Below, one piece after another: positions 6,702 through 44,320 of a stretch of 64,000 bases of DNA. How positions within the stretch are numbered: position 1 is the first letter of the stretch; every line of letters starts with the position of its first letter. A program made the translations under genes and the position numbers. Where the stretch lies: NCBI GenBank assembly GCA_015067975.1, contig SVLK01000004.1:1-64000 (forward strand), written 5' to 3'. This DNA is from Oscillospiraceae bacterium. Its GTDB lineage: Bacteria > Bacillota > Clostridia > Oscillospirales > Oscillospiraceae. The notes under the pieces are model-generated. The model did not search any database and was not told the origin of the DNA. It saw only the letters and a list, made by a program, of their open reading frames with translations.

Positions 6702-6970
6702 GTATATGAGAATAGCGAAGAAGGGAAGCAGTAGACGTACCGCAGAGGCAAAGAGAGGGAGTGGCCGGTGTAAACTCCCGTGATGCGCCGTTGAAGTCGT
6801 CCCGGAGCTCTGGGCTGAAATTAACAGTAAGCTGCAGCGGTGATCCGCCGTTATCCGGATACGGTCATTTTGACCGGCTGAGTGCGGGATTGATCCCGAA
6901 TACAGGTGGTACCACGGACTTGACGTTCGCCCTGTTTTGCAAAGGCAAAACGGAGCGGACTTTTTGTTTT
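6702..6970 (+). promoter_or_regulatory. T-box riboswitch (valine) with terminator
   Basis: T-box sequence AGGTGGTACCACGG (about 6904-6917); terminator GTTCGC..TGTTTTGC-aaag-GCAAAACG..GCGGAC-TTTTT; candidate specifier GUC at 6796-6798. Confidence 0.9.
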
Positions 6971-29042: not shown

Positions 29043-29969
29043 ATGACGAGAGCAAAGTATGCAATTGAACGATTTGAGCAGGCAGTAGACTTGCTGCCGC
29101 TGCGTTTGCAGCGCTCAGCGCGACAGATGTCAGACTGGAAAAAAGAACAAGCAGAAGAGCTGCGGCTGCGGGTGGGCCAGCCTATGACGGTACTTTTGCC
29201 GGAGGGTGAGCAGTTTTCCACAGAGGAACTGCCGCGAATAACCGTCGGTCGGGGAGATCTGGAGCAGCTGTGCGATGCGGTGACTGGGTACTCTCGTTAT
29301 GCGGCTAAAGAGACTATCAGCCGTGGTTATATCACCGCTGATGGTGGATTTCGCATCGGTATTTGCGGCACAGCGGTAATGCGCGGTGAGCAAAACATCA
29401 ATTTAAAAGACATTTCTTCTGTGGTGATCCGCATTGGCAGAGAACGACGCGGTGTGGCAGATCCGGTGCTGCAGCAAGTGATGGAGAAGGGGGTATTCCC
29501 GGGAACATTGATTCTTTCACCGCCGGGATTGGGGAAGACGACGCTGCTGCGAGATCTGATACGGCTGCTTTCTGACGGCGCTGAGGAACGACCGGCTTTT
29601 CGTGTGGCATTAGTGGATGAGCGGAGTGAAATCGCATTAATGCATCAAGGAAAAGCACAGATGGACGTGGGCTGTCATACGGATGTGCTGGACGGATGCC
29701 CGAAAGCGCTGGCGATCCCCATGATGCTGCGCGCAATGAACCCGCAGATTATAGCAGTGGATGAAATCAGCTTGCAGGAGGATATCCGCTCCGTGGAGAT
29801 GGCCGCAAACTGTGGGGTAGCACTGCTGGCTACCGTACATGGGAGCAGCAAGGAAGAACTGCAGCGAAAGCCGTTATTTTCATCGATGCTGGCGACGGGT
29901 GCATTCCAAAAATGTGTAACCATTTCCGGCTGCGAGGGGAAACGAGACTACATAGTGGAGGAGTTATGA
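29043..29969 (+). CDS. spoIIIAA: Stage III sporulation protein AA
   Basis: [33 protein letters not shown]; first gene of AA-AH cluster. Confidence 0.95.
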   Translation: MTRAKYAIERFEQAVDLLPLRLQRSARQMSDWKKEQAEELRLRVGQPMTVLLPEGEQFSTEELPRITVGRGDLEQLCDAVTGYSRYAAKETISRGYITADGGFRIGICGTAVMRGEQNINLKDISSVVIRIGRERRGVADPVLQQVMEKGVFPGTLILSPPGLGKTTLLRDLIRLLSDGAEERPAFRVALVDERSEIALMHQGKAQMDVGCHTDVLDGCPKALAIPMMLRAMNPQIIAVDEISLQEDIRSVEMAANCGVALLATVHGSSKEELQRKPLFSSMLATGAFQKCVTISGCEGKRDYIVEEL

Positions 29970-30445
29970 TTGCGAAGCTGGCAGGAGCGTTGCTGCTAGT
30001 GTTGGGCGGTGGACATTTCTGCGTGGAGCGAATCAGACGGCGCAGAAAAGAAATACAGTTGCGCTATGAACTGGCGGCGGCGCTGGAAAGTATGGAGGGG
30101 ATGATTCGTTGGGAAAAAGCAACACTGCTCGCTGCGATAAAGGGACAATGCGGACGAAACGGGTGCGGAGAAATGTTTGCTGATATCCTCAAACTTGTGA
30201 AAAGTAAAACAGCTTTACAAGATGCTTGGAAAAACACTTTCTGGTTGATAGAACCTGTGAGAGATATTATGTGCCGCATTGAGCTTTCGGGAGATGAGCT
30301 TCGAATCACAGGACAGCTGCATTGGGCTGCGCAGCAGCTGCGCCAAACAGCTGAGCAGTGTAATGCGGACCGCGCGGAGAGTGAAAAGCTGTGCTGGGTG
30401 ATTTGCGCATCGGCAGTGAGTTTGGTCACGATTTTACTGTTTTGA
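29966..30445 (+). CDS. spoIIIAB: Stage III sporulation protein AB
   Basis: Position and N-terminal TM MIAKLAGALLLVLGGG. Confidence 0.9.
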   Translation: MIAKLAGALLLVLGGGHFCVERIRRRRKEIQLRYELAAALESMEGMIRWEKATLLAAIKGQCGRNGCGEMFADILKLVKSKTALQDAWKNTFWLIEPVRDIMCRIELSGDELRITGQLHWAAQQLRQTAEQCNADRAESEKLCWVICASAVSLVTILLF

Positions 30446-30453
30446 GAGGGACT

Positions 30454-30648
30454 ATGGACGTTGATTTGATTTTTAAGATCGCTGCGATCGGAATCGTGGT
30501 GGCTGTTTTGAATCAGGTGCTGATCCGCAGCGGAAGAGAAGAGCAGGCTATGATGACGACATTGGCCGGTCTCGTAGTGGTATTGATGATGTTGGTGCAG
30601 AAGATCAGTGATTTATTTGACCTGATCAAGACGTTATTTTCGTTGTGA
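30454..30648 (+). CDS. spoIIIAC: Stage III sporulation protein AC
   Basis: MDVDLIFKIAAIGIVVAVLNQVLIRSGREEQAMMTTLAGLVVVLMMLV. Confidence 0.94.
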   Translation: MDVDLIFKIAAIGIVVAVLNQVLIRSGREEQAMMTTLAGLVVVLMMLVQKISDLFDLIKTLFSL

Positions 30649-31034
30649 TGGAAGCGATGATGAAACTGGCAGCCCTATGTTTGCTGGGAGCGGGACTGGC
30701 AACACTGCTTCGTAAAAATACGCCGGAATTGTCGCTGGTGTTGATTGTAGCCGTGGTTGTGGCGATGTTCTTTTCTCTGGCGACATTGCTGGGTAGGGTG
30801 TTTAACTTTTTCGACCGTCTTGTGACAATAATTGGACTTTCAGCGCAGCTGTTTACGCCGCTGATCAAAACTGTGGCCATTGCGCTGATCAGCCGAAGCG
30901 GTGCGGAAGTATGTCGAGATGCCGGTGCGGGCGCCATCGGTTATATGTTGGAAACAGCAGGAGCGGTAGGTGCGATCATTGTGGCGATACCGCTGTTTGA
31001 AGCCGTATGGGAGACAATACAAATGGTGTTATGA
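30648..31034 (+). CDS. spoIIIAD: Stage III sporulation protein AD
   Basis: ALCLLGAGLATLLRKNTPELSLVLIV..; gene order. Confidence 0.92.
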   Translation: MEAMMKLAALCLLGAGLATLLRKNTPELSLVLIVAVVVAMFFSLATLLGRVFNFFDRLVTIIGLSAQLFTPLIKTVAIALISRSGAEVCRDAGAGAIGYMLETAGAVGAIIVAIPLFEAVWETIQMVL

Positions 31035-32113
31035 AACGATGGATCTGCATGTGCATATTGCTGCTGACGTTGGTGCAGACGGCGCAGGCAGCTACACTTC
31101 CGGAAGAGTTGGGACAGGCATTGCCACCGGAAGCAGAAGATATTTTGGACGAGCTGAGCGAACAGGAAATGGATTTCCATACACTGTCCCGGGGATTTGC
31201 TTTGCTTTGGGATAAAGCGTGCCGAATTTTGGGAAAAGTCATTAAGGAAAGTGTGGGAAGCGGTGTTCTTGTGCTGGGAATTGTGCTGCTTTGTTCCATG
31301 GCGGATGACTGCATGCAGGCAGCAGAGAGCGATCAAGGGAAACAATATGTGGCCATAGCAGGCAGTGCGGCTATTACGGTGGCAGCAGCCGGCAGGCTGC
31401 ATTCGTTGATTGCGCTGGGCGTGGAGATGATCGGAGAACTGAACGTGTTTTCCAAAGCACTTTTGCCTACGCTGGCTGCGGCGCTGGCGGCCGGTGGGGG
31501 AGTGGCTTCTGCAGGCTTACGTCACGTGGCGGGAGTATTCTTTTCTGATGTACTGATGACGGCGATACAGGATATTTTATTGCCGTTGGTGTACTTTTAT
31601 ATTGCTGTTGCTGCAGCACATGCGGCGCTGCCGGAATTCCGGCTGAAAAGTATTGCCAAAGCCATCAGCAAAGGAACGGCTTGGCTGCTTAGCGGAGCTT
31701 TGGCGCTGTACACTGGCTATTTGACCGTTTCGGGTGTAGTGGCGCAATCAGCCGACACATTGACGGCACAGTTGACACGCTCGGCGATGGGGGCTGTCCC
31801 TGTGGTGGGGAGTGTGTTGTCTGATTCTGCCGGAGCGGTATTGTCCGGAGCAGCGCTGCTGAAAAACACGGTGGGGGTGTGGGGCATGCTGGCGGTGCTG
31901 GCCATTTGCTTTGGGCCGGTACTTCGGCTGGCGGTGCAATATTTGATCTTCAAAGCAATGGCCTTTTTGGCGGGAACCATCGGTACAGCATCGCTGGTGG
32001 AGCTGGTAGAGGCTTTAGGAACGGCGTTTGGTATGGTGCTGGGGATGACAGGAGCCTGTGCAATTTTGCTGCTGATCTCTCTTATTACGGCGATTTCGGT
32101 GGTGATCATATGA
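31031..32113 (+). CDS. spoIIIAE: Stage III sporulation protein AE
   Basis: Multi-TM protein in order after AD; ATG at 31031. Confidence 0.92.
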   Translation: MKRWICMCILLLTLVQTAQAATLPEELGQALPPEAEDILDELSEQEMDFHTLSRGFALLWDKACRILGKVIKESVGSGVLVLGIVLLCSMADDCMQAAESDQGKQYVAIAGSAAITVAAAGRLHSLIALGVEMIGELNVFSKALLPTLAAALAAGGGVASAGLRHVAGVFFSDVLMTAIQDILLPLVYFYIAVAAAHAALPEFRLKSIAKAISKGTAWLLSGALALYTGYLTVSGVVAQSADTLTAQLTRSAMGAVPVVGSVLSDSAGAVLSGAALLKNTVGVWGMLAVLAICFGPVLRLAVQYLIFKAMAFLAGTIGTASLVELVEALGTAFGMVLGMTGACAILLLISLITAISVVII

Positions 32114-32583
32114 TACAAGCATTAAGAGAATGGCTATTTAGTCTGGTGGCAGCGGCAATGCTGCTTTCTGCGCTTCAAACGCTGTTGCCTAAACGTATGT
32201 TCCAATCCATTGGCCGTGTAACAGGAGGCTTGGCTTTGACGCTGGTTTTACTGCGACCATTACTGACAATGCAGTGGGAGAATTTTTCTGATAAGTATCA
32301 AGGGTATGAACAACAGATTGATCGACAGATTGAGGTATATACGCAGGATAACCGGCAGCAGATGGAAGACATCATAGAACAGCAACTGAATGCATATGTA
32401 TGGGAAACAGCAGCACAGATGGGACTGGACTGCGAGGCAGAAGTAGAAACGGAATTGCGTGATGGCGTGCTGCAGCCTGTCAGCGTCAGGCTTTATACCG
32501 ATTACAACGAATTGCTATCCGAACGCATATCCCGTGAACTGGGGATTGCTCCGGAACAACAGCACTGGGGGGGCAGCAAATGA
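32110..32583 (+). CDS. spoIIIAF: Stage III sporulation protein AF
   Basis: MIQALREWLFSLVAAAMLLSALQTLLPK; in-order, ATG overlaps AE stop. Confidence 0.9.
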   Translation: MIQALREWLFSLVAAAMLLSALQTLLPKRMFQSIGRVTGGLALTLVLLRPLLTMQWENFSDKYQGYEQQIDRQIEVYTQDNRQQMEDIIEQQLNAYVWETAAQMGLDCEAEVETELRDGVLQPVSVRLYTDYNELLSERISRELGIAPEQQHWGGSK

Positions 32584-33092
32584 AAGGACTGGCAGGAAGG
32601 ATAGATGTCGCGGCAGCGTGGAAAAAATACCGTTTTGCTGCGCTGATTATACTGCTGGGGATTGCGCTGATGTTGATGCCAGTGGGTAATGATAAAAAAG
32701 AAAGCAGAGAAGAGGATAAGGCGGAAGAAGTATTTTCGCTGGAAGACACAGAGCGGCGCATGGAAGCAATTTTGAGCAGAATCGAAGGTGCTGGCAAGCT
32801 GCAAGTGATGCTGACGCTTAAGAGCGGTGCACGGCTGTATCTGGCAGAGGATACGGAAGAATCTGCCGAAGAAAATGCGGTGCAGAGGAGAAAAGAGACA
32901 GTGATCGTCAGTAAAGGCAGCGGATACGAGGATGTGGTAGTCACGCAGCAGATATATCCTTTGTATCAAGGCGCGGTGGTCGTCTGTCAAGGCGGCGATA
33001 AAGCGGCGGTGCGTTTGGCAATTACCGAGGCGGTTGCAGCACTGACAGGATTGAGCAGCGATAAGATTTCAGTGGTGAAGTGGAATTCATAA
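32580..33092 (+). CDS. spoIIIAG: Stage III sporulation protein AG
   Basis: ILSRIEGAGKLQVMLTL; VVVCQGGDKAAVRLAITEAVAALTGLSSDKISVVKW. Confidence 0.93.
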   Translation: MKGLAGRIDVAAAWKKYRFAALIILLGIALMLMPVGNDKKESREEDKAEEVFSLEDTERRMEAILSRIEGAGKLQVMLTLKSGARLYLAEDTEESAEENAVQRRKETVIVSKGSGYEDVVVTQQIYPLYQGAVVVCQGGDKAAVRLAITEAVAALTGLSSDKISVVKWNS

Positions 33093-33107
33093 TAGGAGGA
33101 AGAAAAC

Positions 33108-33638
33108 ATGAAGCAGGTATGGAAAAAGAGGGCAGTGGCAGCTACAGTGTTGGTATTTGTCGGGGCGGCGGTCTATCTCAACTGGCGTTATGCGGACAAT
33201 GTGGCGGACACATCCAAGGTGCTGGGACAGTCTACGCTGGTGAACTCACAGGAAGAGACAGAGGATAACGCACAGCAATCTGCCCAAAGCGACTACTTTG
33301 CCACTGCTCGGCTGAGTCGGAAGCAGGCGAGAGATAATGCCATCAGTATGCTGCAGGAAGCGGAGAGTGTGGCCAATGCGGAACAGAGTGTATTGAACGA
33401 GGCCTCCGAGGCGCTGCAGGTTTTGGCCTCCTACACGGTGGCAGAAGCACAGATCGAGAGCTTGGTAACGGCAAAAGGATATGCCGACTGTGTGGCATTT
33501 ATGGGCGATGAGAGCATCAGTGTGGTAGTGTCAGACGCAGACGGACTGGATACCACCGATGTGGCGCGGATCAAAGACATCGTGATCAGTGAGACGAACT
33601 ACACCGCAGGACAGATCAAGATCATGGAGGCAAATTAA
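33108..33638 (+). CDS. spoIIIAH: Stage III sporulation protein AH
   Basis: TM + YFATARLSRKQARDNAISMLQEA... AHL-type domain. Confidence 0.92.
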   Translation: MKQVWKKRAVAATVLVFVGAAVYLNWRYADNVADTSKVLGQSTLVNSQEETEDNAQQSAQSDYFATARLSRKQARDNAISMLQEAESVANAEQSVLNEASEALQVLASYTVAEAQIESLVTAKGYADCVAFMGDESISVVVSDADGLDTTDVARIKDIVISETNYTAGQIKIMEAN

Positions 33639-36053: not shown

Positions 36054-36923
36054 ATGGACTATCAGAGCCGTTATGCTGCCTATCAGGCGGCCATTGAAGA
36101 ATATCTGGCAGCCTTGTTCGTGGAAGACAAACCCTACGGAAAGCTGTATGAGTCGATTCGATACAGCATTTTGGCCGGCGGCAAGCGCATCCGCCCTGTA
36201 TTGACGCTGGAGTTTGCCCGTCTTGGCGGCATTGACTGGCATTTGGCGTTGCCGTATGCCTGCGCGCTGGAATTGGTACATAATTACTCATTGATCCATG
36301 ATGATTTGCCCTGCATGGATGATGACGATCTGCGCCGAGGCAAACCTACCAATCACAAGGTATATGGCGAAACGATGGCTGTTTTGGCCGGTGATGCATT
36401 ACAGCCTGAGGCGTTTCGCCTCATCGCACAGGCACCCGGCATGAGCGCCCAGAGCCGCATTGACGCGGTAGAAGTACTGGCCAAGGCCTGCGGTGCCGAC
36501 GGTATGGTGGGCGGTCAGGTGCTGGACTGCGTATATGAAATCAACGATGCAGAGGGCTTGACGACGCTGAACCGTCTAAAGACCGGCGTGATGATTTCCG
36601 GAGCTGCGGAGCTGGGGTGTGTTGCATCCGGTATGGACGCGGCAATGCGGGCTCAGGCCGTTGAATATGCCGATCAGTTGGGCCTTGCATTCCAGATCCG
36701 CGACGATATGCTGGATGTGGTGGGCGACGAACAGGTGTTTGGCAAACCCATTGGCTCGGATAAAGAAGAGGGAAAGATCACCTTTGTGGATATCAAGGGA
36801 CTGGACGGCTGCGCTAAGGAAGTGGACGAGTGTACGGCTCGCGCCAAGGCAGCTGTGGCCGGCTGGGAGGATCACGAATTCCTTTGGGAATTGGCCGAAC
36901 AGATGACTGGAAGAAAGCAATAA
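36054..36923 (+). CDS. ispA: Farnesyl/geranyl diphosphate synthase-type polyprenyl synthetase
   Basis: GGKRIRPVLTLE, LIHDDLPCMDDDDLRRGKPTNHKVYGE, QIRDDMLDVVGDE. Confidence 0.95.
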   Translation: MDYQSRYAAYQAAIEEYLAALFVEDKPYGKLYESIRYSILAGGKRIRPVLTLEFARLGGIDWHLALPYACALELVHNYSLIHDDLPCMDDDDLRRGKPTNHKVYGETMAVLAGDALQPEAFRLIAQAPGMSAQSRIDAVEVLAKACGADGMVGGQVLDCVYEINDAEGLTTLNRLKTGVMISGAAELGCVASGMDAAMRAQAVEYADQLGLAFQIRDDMLDVVGDEQVFGKPIGSDKEEGKITFVDIKGLDGCAKEVDECTARAKAAVAGWEDHEFLWELAEQMTGRKQ

Positions 36924-36966
36924 AAAGAATGATCCGTTTTCGAGAGGGAACGGATCATTCTTTTTT
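36923..36966 (+). terminator. ispA terminator
   Basis: AAAAAGAATGATCCGTT...AACGGATCATTCTTTTTT. Confidence 0.92.
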
Positions 36967-37021: not shown

Positions 37022-37050
37022 TTGAAAATATTTTAGAAGTGTGGTAAGAT
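37022..37050 (+). promoter_or_regulatory. OLE RNA promoter
   Basis: TTGAAA (37022-37027) - 17 nt - TAAGAT (37045-37050); predicted +1 at about 37057. Confidence 0.82.
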
Positions 37051-37058
37051 ATGTGTCG

Positions 37059-37711
37059 CTGAACAGCGGCGCAGTATCCTAGTCAGATCTACCGTCTCTG
37101 AAGAAGGGCCTAAAAATCCTTTAAAGGGCACAACTGTGAAGCCACTGGTGCTTGCTTCTTACGCCCAGTTTGGGGTGGGTGCTGGTGGTAGGCGCGGGAT
37201 TTTCCTGCTGCCTGCGGCTGTAGGGCGCTCTCCAATGGCATGGAGAACCCGACCCTGCACCCGTGGAGACCTGCTGTTGTGGATAGGCGTACTCCCTTGT
37301 GGTAACCGACCTGTCTACGAAGCAGATTGAGAACCTGCAATGCGGTGCTACCCGGCCTTGAGCCGTGAACGCTGTGTGCAGAGTAGCCTGCCTTGCGTGG
37401 GTATGGCGAATAGGAGAGTTGATGCACGAAATCCCCGGCCAGGGACGTAGTGATATTTCCTTGAAACCATGGCTGCAAAAGAGGCTAAGAGACGGTTTGA
37501 CTGCAGTGGAAATCACCTAGGCTGTCCTTAACAGTATGGGGCGCCGGGGGGATTGCAGTACGGACTAAGTGGCAGTCGGGTACCATAGTTTGGTAACACT
37601 ATGGCGCAGCACCGAAAGGGAAACCGCCTGATCGGCGACGAGAGGTGTGCTGTGGGGAAATCCAACCCGTACCTAAGCCGTAAGATTAACTCCCGGAGCT
37701 GCCCTGTTCAG
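37059..37711 (+). ncRNA. ole: OLE (ornate large extremophilic) RNA
   Basis: About 650-nt noncoding block between ispA and an OapA-like gene upstream of dxs; ends form a terminal helix CUGAACAG (37059-37066)/CUGUUCAG (37704-37711) continued by GGC/GCC; conserved-looking 3' region ACCGAAAGGGAAACCGCCUGAUCGGCGACGAGAGG...GGGGAAAUCCAACCCGUACCUAAGCCGUAAGAUUAACUCCCGG. Confidence 0.92.
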
Positions 37712-37740
37712 TAAATTTTATAATCAGAGGATGAGTTTTC

Positions 37741-38286
37741 TTGAGTGACAAAGAACGAGGGAAAAAGAAGAACAGCCATTGGCCGATCAAAGTTTTCCTG
37801 ATGTCGATCGCGCTGTCAGCCGTGCTGAGCTTTTTCTCTTCTACCGCCCTGACCGGTGCCAGTTATGTGATCGCCCTTTTGGTGTTGTTGGCATTTATCG
37901 GTCTGGGCATTATTTTTGATATGATCGGTGTGGCCGTTACCGCGGCAGATCCCCGTCCGTTCCACTCTATGGCAGCCCATAAGGAAAAGGGAGGCCGGGA
38001 GGCGGTACGGCTACTGAGCAAAGCCAATGAGGTGAGCTCTTTTTGCAACGATGTTGTAGGTGATATCTGCGGCATCGTCAGCGGTTCTACTGCGGCGGTA
38101 ATCGTGACACAGCTGCAAGAGGGCCTAAATACCACGTCGGTATTGATTTCCATTGCAGTGACGGCATTGATTTCCGGTATGACCATTGGCGGTAAAGCCC
38201 TTGGTAAAAAAATTGCAATCAATGACAGCACCAGCGTGGTGTATCGCGTAGCTCGTATGGCCCACACATTACATCTATTCCGTTGA
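37741..38286 (+). CDS. oapA: OLE-associated membrane protein OapA
   Basis: Multi-TM 181-aa protein immediately downstream of OLE RNA: GLGIIFDMIGVAVTAADPRPFHSMAAHKEKGGREAVRLLSKANEVSSFCNDVVGDICGIVSG; TTG start. Confidence 0.88.
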   Translation: MSDKERGKKKNSHWPIKVFLMSIALSAVLSFFSSTALTGASYVIALLVLLAFIGLGIIFDMIGVAVTAADPRPFHSMAAHKEKGGREAVRLLSKANEVSSFCNDVVGDICGIVSGSTAAVIVTQLQEGLNTTSVLISIAVTALISGMTIGGKALGKKIAINDSTSVVYRVARMAHTLHLFR

Positions 38287-44029: not shown

Positions 44030-44320
44030 TTGAGAATTTGATAATGTGATAAGCGAGGAAGGGAAGAAGTACCCTGCCGAAGACCTGTAAAGAGAAGCCC
44101 TGGTTGGTGAAAAGGGCAGAGGAAACGGTTGGCGAATACATCCCGGAGCAGCCTCCTGAACGTGCCTTAGGTGCTGAGTAGGGATGTGTCGGGTCCGCCC
44201 GTTACAGCGGTAGGGTGTTTTGCACCCGACGAGGCCGTGTTCCGCGAGGATACGGCGAACAAGAGGTGGTACCGCGATATAATGATCGCCCTCTGTCTTA
44301 CGACAGGGGGCGTTTTCTTT
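44030..44320 (+). promoter_or_regulatory. T-box riboswitch (tyrosine) with terminator
   Basis: AGAGGTGGTACCGCGA T-box (about 44261-44276); terminator GCCCTCTGTC-ttac-GACAGGGGGC-GTTTTC; specifier UAC at 44137-44139. Confidence 0.93.

Follow-up and report, generated by a model that had tools for sequence, protein, structure and literature searches.

The stretch of DNA that we have analysed (the window, 64,000 nt) belongs to an Oscillospiraceae bacterium (assembly GCA_015067975.1, contig SVLK01000004.1, positions 1-64,000 of the forward strand). Between ispA and oapA it contains a copy of OLE, a large bacterial noncoding RNA that was known previously (Table 1). In a scan with Rfam covariance models, RF01071 matched positions 37050-37721 of the plus strand with 420.9 bits (E 3e-120; the gathering score is 50 bits), the alignment ran over model positions 1-616 of 616, and this was the sole match to RF01071 in the genome. 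An earlier annotation made from the letters of the window (hereafter the sequence-only reading) had taken this noncoding block of ~650 nt for OLE RNA, and the full-length match of the Rfam OLE model, run on the locus, is decisive for that identity. On these sequence grounds we consider it confirmed that the window carries a genuine and complete OLE RNA gene, an ordinary and well-preserved member of a known family.

Table 1. Features of the OLE-oapA locus (positions in the window)
Feature	Position	Strand	Basis or remark
Intrinsic terminator after ispA, 5' of the OLE promoter	36923..36966	+	18-bp stem (one mismatch allowed), T-run
OLE promoter, sigma-A-type, TTGAAA-N17-TAAGAT, extended -10 TGG	37022..37050	+	Kept in 25/25 genus loci
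OLE RNA, predicted mature extent ~655 nt	37058..37712	+	RF01071 match; ends from terminal helix and promoter
Terminal helix, 5' arm	37059..37070	+	Pairing, coevolution in relatives
J4a/5 region (GGGCACAACTGTGAAG), common 5' strand of k-turns 1a and 1b	37126..37141	+	Rfam alignment; PMC9723947, PMC12054373
Extra hairpin in J5/6, outside the Rfam consensus	37190..37213	+	Covariance-alignment insert; compensatory changes; Oscillospiraceae-wide
J6/7 GTGGAGA, partner strand of k-turn 1b	37263..37269	+	GGAGA conservation
GGCC palindrome, P9.3 region	37437..37440	+	Sequence; equals C. acetobutylicum dimer kissing-loop sequence (PMC12286853)
Terminal helix, 3' arm	37701..37711	+	Pairing, coevolution in relatives
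oapA, membrane protein of 181 aa, TTG start	37741..38286	+	OLE-adjacent, weak CNNM, D104-x3-D108

A published survey of Bacillota lists OLE at 2,822 places (PMC11332333). We have found it in 52 of 99 relatives, among them 27 of the 32 genomes that belong to the genus of the source bacterium; the remaining five are 65-81% complete. Many other Clostridia score higher against RF01071 (up to 556 bits), as might be expected if the present copy were degenerate or inactive. However, the genus mates score alike, the match is full-length with its motifs conserved, promoter and closing helix have been maintained (see below) and oapA is intact, leaving hardly any room for such a decayed copy. Among the relatives, one 11.5-kb contig (CAJFPI010000244.1) contains the same oapA-OLE locus twice in opposite orientation (L104 and L105), probably an assembly palindrome. 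A MAG called Candidatus Cacconaster stercorequi (L067/L039), with an NCBI lineage in Bacteroidales, has the OLE and oapA of the present genus, and its name or lineage is probably misassigned.

The gene order had been read as nusB-xseAB-ispA-OLE-oapA-dxs-tlyA-nadK-argR-recN. Most of it is now backed by Pfam, which confirms Asp23, nusB, xseA, xseB, ispA, dxs and tlyA as neighbours, with nadK, argR and recN assigned from ORF translations alone. The description of oapA as adjoining OLE also held. GAGGATGAG lies directly 5' of its TTG start, and the product scores 24.6 bits against Pfam CNNM, below the cut-off of 28.4; a weak CNNM match has already been published for OapA. The spacing of the retained D-x3-D motif matches that of D100/D104 studied in the OapA of Halalkalibacterium halodurans (PMC9723947). 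The 80 homologues of this protein that we have collected are 55-89% identical to it, and at least 73 of them are in loci with OLE DNA detectable by nhmmer. Elsewhere in the window there are two T-box leaders (6709-6937 and 44047-44296), the second of which precedes an ORF resembling tyrosyl-tRNA synthetase. The ORFs at 29912-33638 resemble the spoIIIA operon, from which it is reasonable to take the source bacterium for a spore-former.

Upstream of OLE, the sequence-only reading had seen a dedicated consensus promoter. Its parts are TTGAAA (37022-37027), a spacer of 17 nt and TAAGAT (37045-37050), with TGG directly before the -10. Taken as a single sequence the match is 9/12, four sites of such quality occur in 2.7 kb against 2.5 expected, and the shuffle p in its own sequence (about 0.15) is not significant; for this reason we have used conservation across the genus instead. 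In each of the 25 loci of the genus whose upstream sequence is long enough, TTGnnn-N17-TAnnnT with an extended TGn is kept 21-23 nt ahead of a common OLE anchor. The same arrangement appeared in 0 of 10,400 shuffles, a figure that overstates the significance since the genus sequences are related, although their flanking bases differ widely. The dedicated promoter therefore stands, while calling it consensus was generous. The predicted +1 (~37057) falls 1-2 nt ahead of the terminal helix, in agreement with the earlier placement within 2 nt of the helix start.

The strong terminator that had been described as separating OLE from the upstream genes is equally evident, with -26.9 kcal/mol on the plus strand and -21.8 kcal/mol on the minus strand. 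A terminator-like stem is found at the corresponding place in 17 of the 25 genus members, different in sequence in most of them. No terminator was detected between OLE and oapA, here or in any of the 25 genus loci. From the conserved promoter, the terminator upstream and the lack of one before oapA, we conclude that OLE-oapA would be transcribed from its own promoter, reading through into oapA, as the sequence-only reading had supposed. The genus provides a view of an OLE-oapA unit insulated from ispA, in which the promoter is kept and the sequence of the terminator changes from species to species.

The two ends of the RNA, as proposed before, are complementary. CTGAACAG (37059-37066) pairs with its exact reverse complement CTGTTCAG (37704-37711), and past one bulged C the helix is extended by GGC (37068-37070) and GCC (37701-37703), giving a duplex energy of -20.3 kcal/mol. 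For 29 relatives whose 5' arms are distinct, the native pairing averages -16.4 kcal/mol versus -9.7 kcal/mol when partners are swapped between species (z = -10.5), and the arms of some relatives have undergone wholesale compensatory change, e.g., AAATATGGGCG/CGCCCATATTT and ATAGTGGCG/CGCCACTAT. The arms coevolve. This helix is missing from the Rfam structure yet is a general feature, and it probably corresponds to stem P1 in the OLE drawings of the literature. A local hairpin at the 5' end (CGCTGAACAGCG) was also considered and dropped, since the genus mates begin with ACTGAACAG and do not share it.

The uninterrupted path from the promoter into oapA, common to the 25 genus loci, would also suit a block that is merely a long cis-regulatory 5' leader of oapA-dxs and not a separate noncoding RNA. 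Such a leader would have to belong, at 420.9 bits, to a family for which a trans-acting RNP has been published, and to have its ends closed by a coevolving helix. Besides, RNA and gene can be apart. In one genome (G060; locus L033, G060:C28) an M18-like aminopeptidase ORF precedes OLE, and ~2.7 kb separate OLE from an OapA-like match downstream. In another (G088; L050, G088:C5) the two are on different contigs, OLE on C5 and the OapA-like match on C10. We therefore regard a simple leader as very unlikely and keep to a separate OLE RNA. A protein-coding gene on the opposite strand is even harder to sustain. The minus strand of OLE has, across 37110-37516, ORFs of 122 and 131 aa, and in some relatives it is open for up to 202 codons, against means of ~80-108 in shuffled sequences. 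However, the length of the open frame goes from 90 to 202 codons among close relatives, and RNA structure constrains the strand and can by itself bias stop codons, making an antisense gene extremely improbable.

The protein partners of OLE were searched for in the source genome. OapC (YbxF, L7Ae-like) is encoded by a single gene on contig C37 (PF01248, 28.6 bits) in the ybxF/OapC position, flanked by rpoC and rpsL, and a bS21 gene is present (PF01165, 77.4 bits). OapB was not found in the source assembly, which is 84% complete and likewise misses infA, the neighbour of OapB in relatives. Two genus mates carry map-OapB-infA, and the OapB of one of them (L058) matches the solved OapB structure 7k9b (E 1.8e-7). 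The source genome gave no CNNM protein of the MpfA type. Along these lines, strong CNNM matches were present in 5 of the 52 genomes with OLE versus 37 of the 47 without it (99 genomes; Fisher p 1.5e-12, a nominal value given that the genomes are not independent and phylogeny is ignored), repeating the published OLE-MpfA anticorrelation (PMC11332333). Exceptions to that anticorrelation are G008, G015, G018, G019 and G094, in which OLE coexists with a strong CNNM protein of the MpfA type. Two incomplete genomes of the same genus (G006 and G011) have CNNM proteins and gave no OLE match.

With the RNA family, the closed ends, the conserved promoter, the terminator, oapA and the partner genes all observed, we have very little doubt that the locus represents a functional OLE RNP system in this uncultured bacterium; what we infer is that the RNA is expressed and processed, that the complex forms and that it plays its physiological role. 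OLE RNA would be made from its extended -10 promoter, shielded by the terminator from nusB-xseAB-ispA, and transcription would continue past it into oapA and dxs. Its ends would close as a helix that marks a species of ~655 nt released by processing. This RNA would then join OapA at the membrane together with OapC (YbxF), bS21 and probably OapB, and the assembled RNP may, like that of H. halodurans, serve in stress and Mg2+ homeostasis.

A region in which the present RNA departs from the Rfam consensus is J5/6, between stems P5 and P6, where the alignment has 23 inserted bases near 37192-37214, which form the hairpin of Table 1. Of the 147 parsable OLE sequences, 103 have a long J5/6 (76 distinct J5/6 sequences, some loci being counted twice) and 44 the standard short one. 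The long version is found in the source genus, in other Oscillospiraceae, among them Dysosmobacter and Oscillibacter (including a cultured species, Oscillibacter valericigenes; L079 and L081), and in a few further lineages (L002, L003, L031), whose differing inserts may be independent gains. In 24 distinct hairpins, 98.4% of the cells are paired, and in seven of the eight pairs both bases have changed. When the partner strand was shifted, pairing fell to 50% or less at every offset, a control that somewhat favours the stem since this was drawn from the same 24 sequences. The hairpin is a clade-specific, coevolving structural addition shared by Oscillospiraceae OLE RNAs. We found it unmentioned in the running text of the OLE papers examined, and its novelty is uncertain.

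The hairpin lies in a part of the RNA for which alternative kink-turns have been described. In H. halodurans, OapC was proposed to bind k-turn 1a, formed by J4a/5 with J5/6 (PMC9723947). In the Clostridium acetobutylicum OLE solved by cryo-EM, J4a/5 instead forms its k-turn with J6/7 (k-turn 1b; PMC12286853). Two mutually exclusive kink-turns have been proposed for the OapC site in a 2025 paper that treats three mutually exclusive k-turn states as real (PMC12054373). The J5/6 motif GUUAAGG leading into P6, which belongs to 1a, is present in none of the 103 hairpin-bearing sequences versus 34 of the 44 hairpin-free ones, while GGAGA of J6/7, which belongs to 1b, is kept in 102/103 and 39/44, respectively. 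The loss of the one and the persistence of the other favours 1b as the k-turn state that hairpin-bearing OLE RNAs would share with the rest. The second base ahead of the bulge in J4a/5 is freely variable. For the position equivalent to U84 the mutual information had no partner in J5/6 or J6/7 and is dominated by phylogeny, so that J4a/5 covariation cannot choose between the k-turns. We have withdrawn the stronger statement that the hairpin rules out 1a, given that the hairpin base is often GAGG or AAGG and could give the needed G if opened; a rearranged 1a could form in these RNAs by such an opening. The hairpin variant proves neither model. It is conceivable, if somewhat doubtful, that Oscillospiraceae OLE is an undescribed subclass in which the hairpin replaces the 1a strand and OapC uses 1b only, in which case the three-state switch would not be universal. 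For OLE specialists, the hairpin-bearing RNAs may be a useful natural variant, with one k-turn strand rewritten family-wide and the other kept.

As one more instance of OLE the locus adds little, the family being published and widespread and a promoter of its own already known in H. halodurans (PMC9723947). The OLE of that bacterium has the same RNA family, ispA-OLE-oapA-dxs surroundings, dedicated promoter, D-x3-D motif in OapA and OapC (PMC9723947, PMC12265935). There, however, the gene is also within one long polycistronic transcript, whereas here a terminator parts OLE from ispA and the J5/6 hairpin stands outside the Rfam consensus. The C. acetobutylicum OLE, seen as a dimer by cryo-EM (PMC12286853), has J4a/5, J6/7 and the GGCC palindrome of its L9.3 kissing loop in common with the present one; it is 577 nt long versus ~655 nt here, where the extra hairpin is present. 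OLE variants 1 and 2 of the TANB77 and RF39 clades are likewise clade-wise departures from the consensus (PMC11332333), but they shorten or lose P7-P9, whereas the present OLE has kept its full length and, between P5 and P6, has acquired a hairpin.
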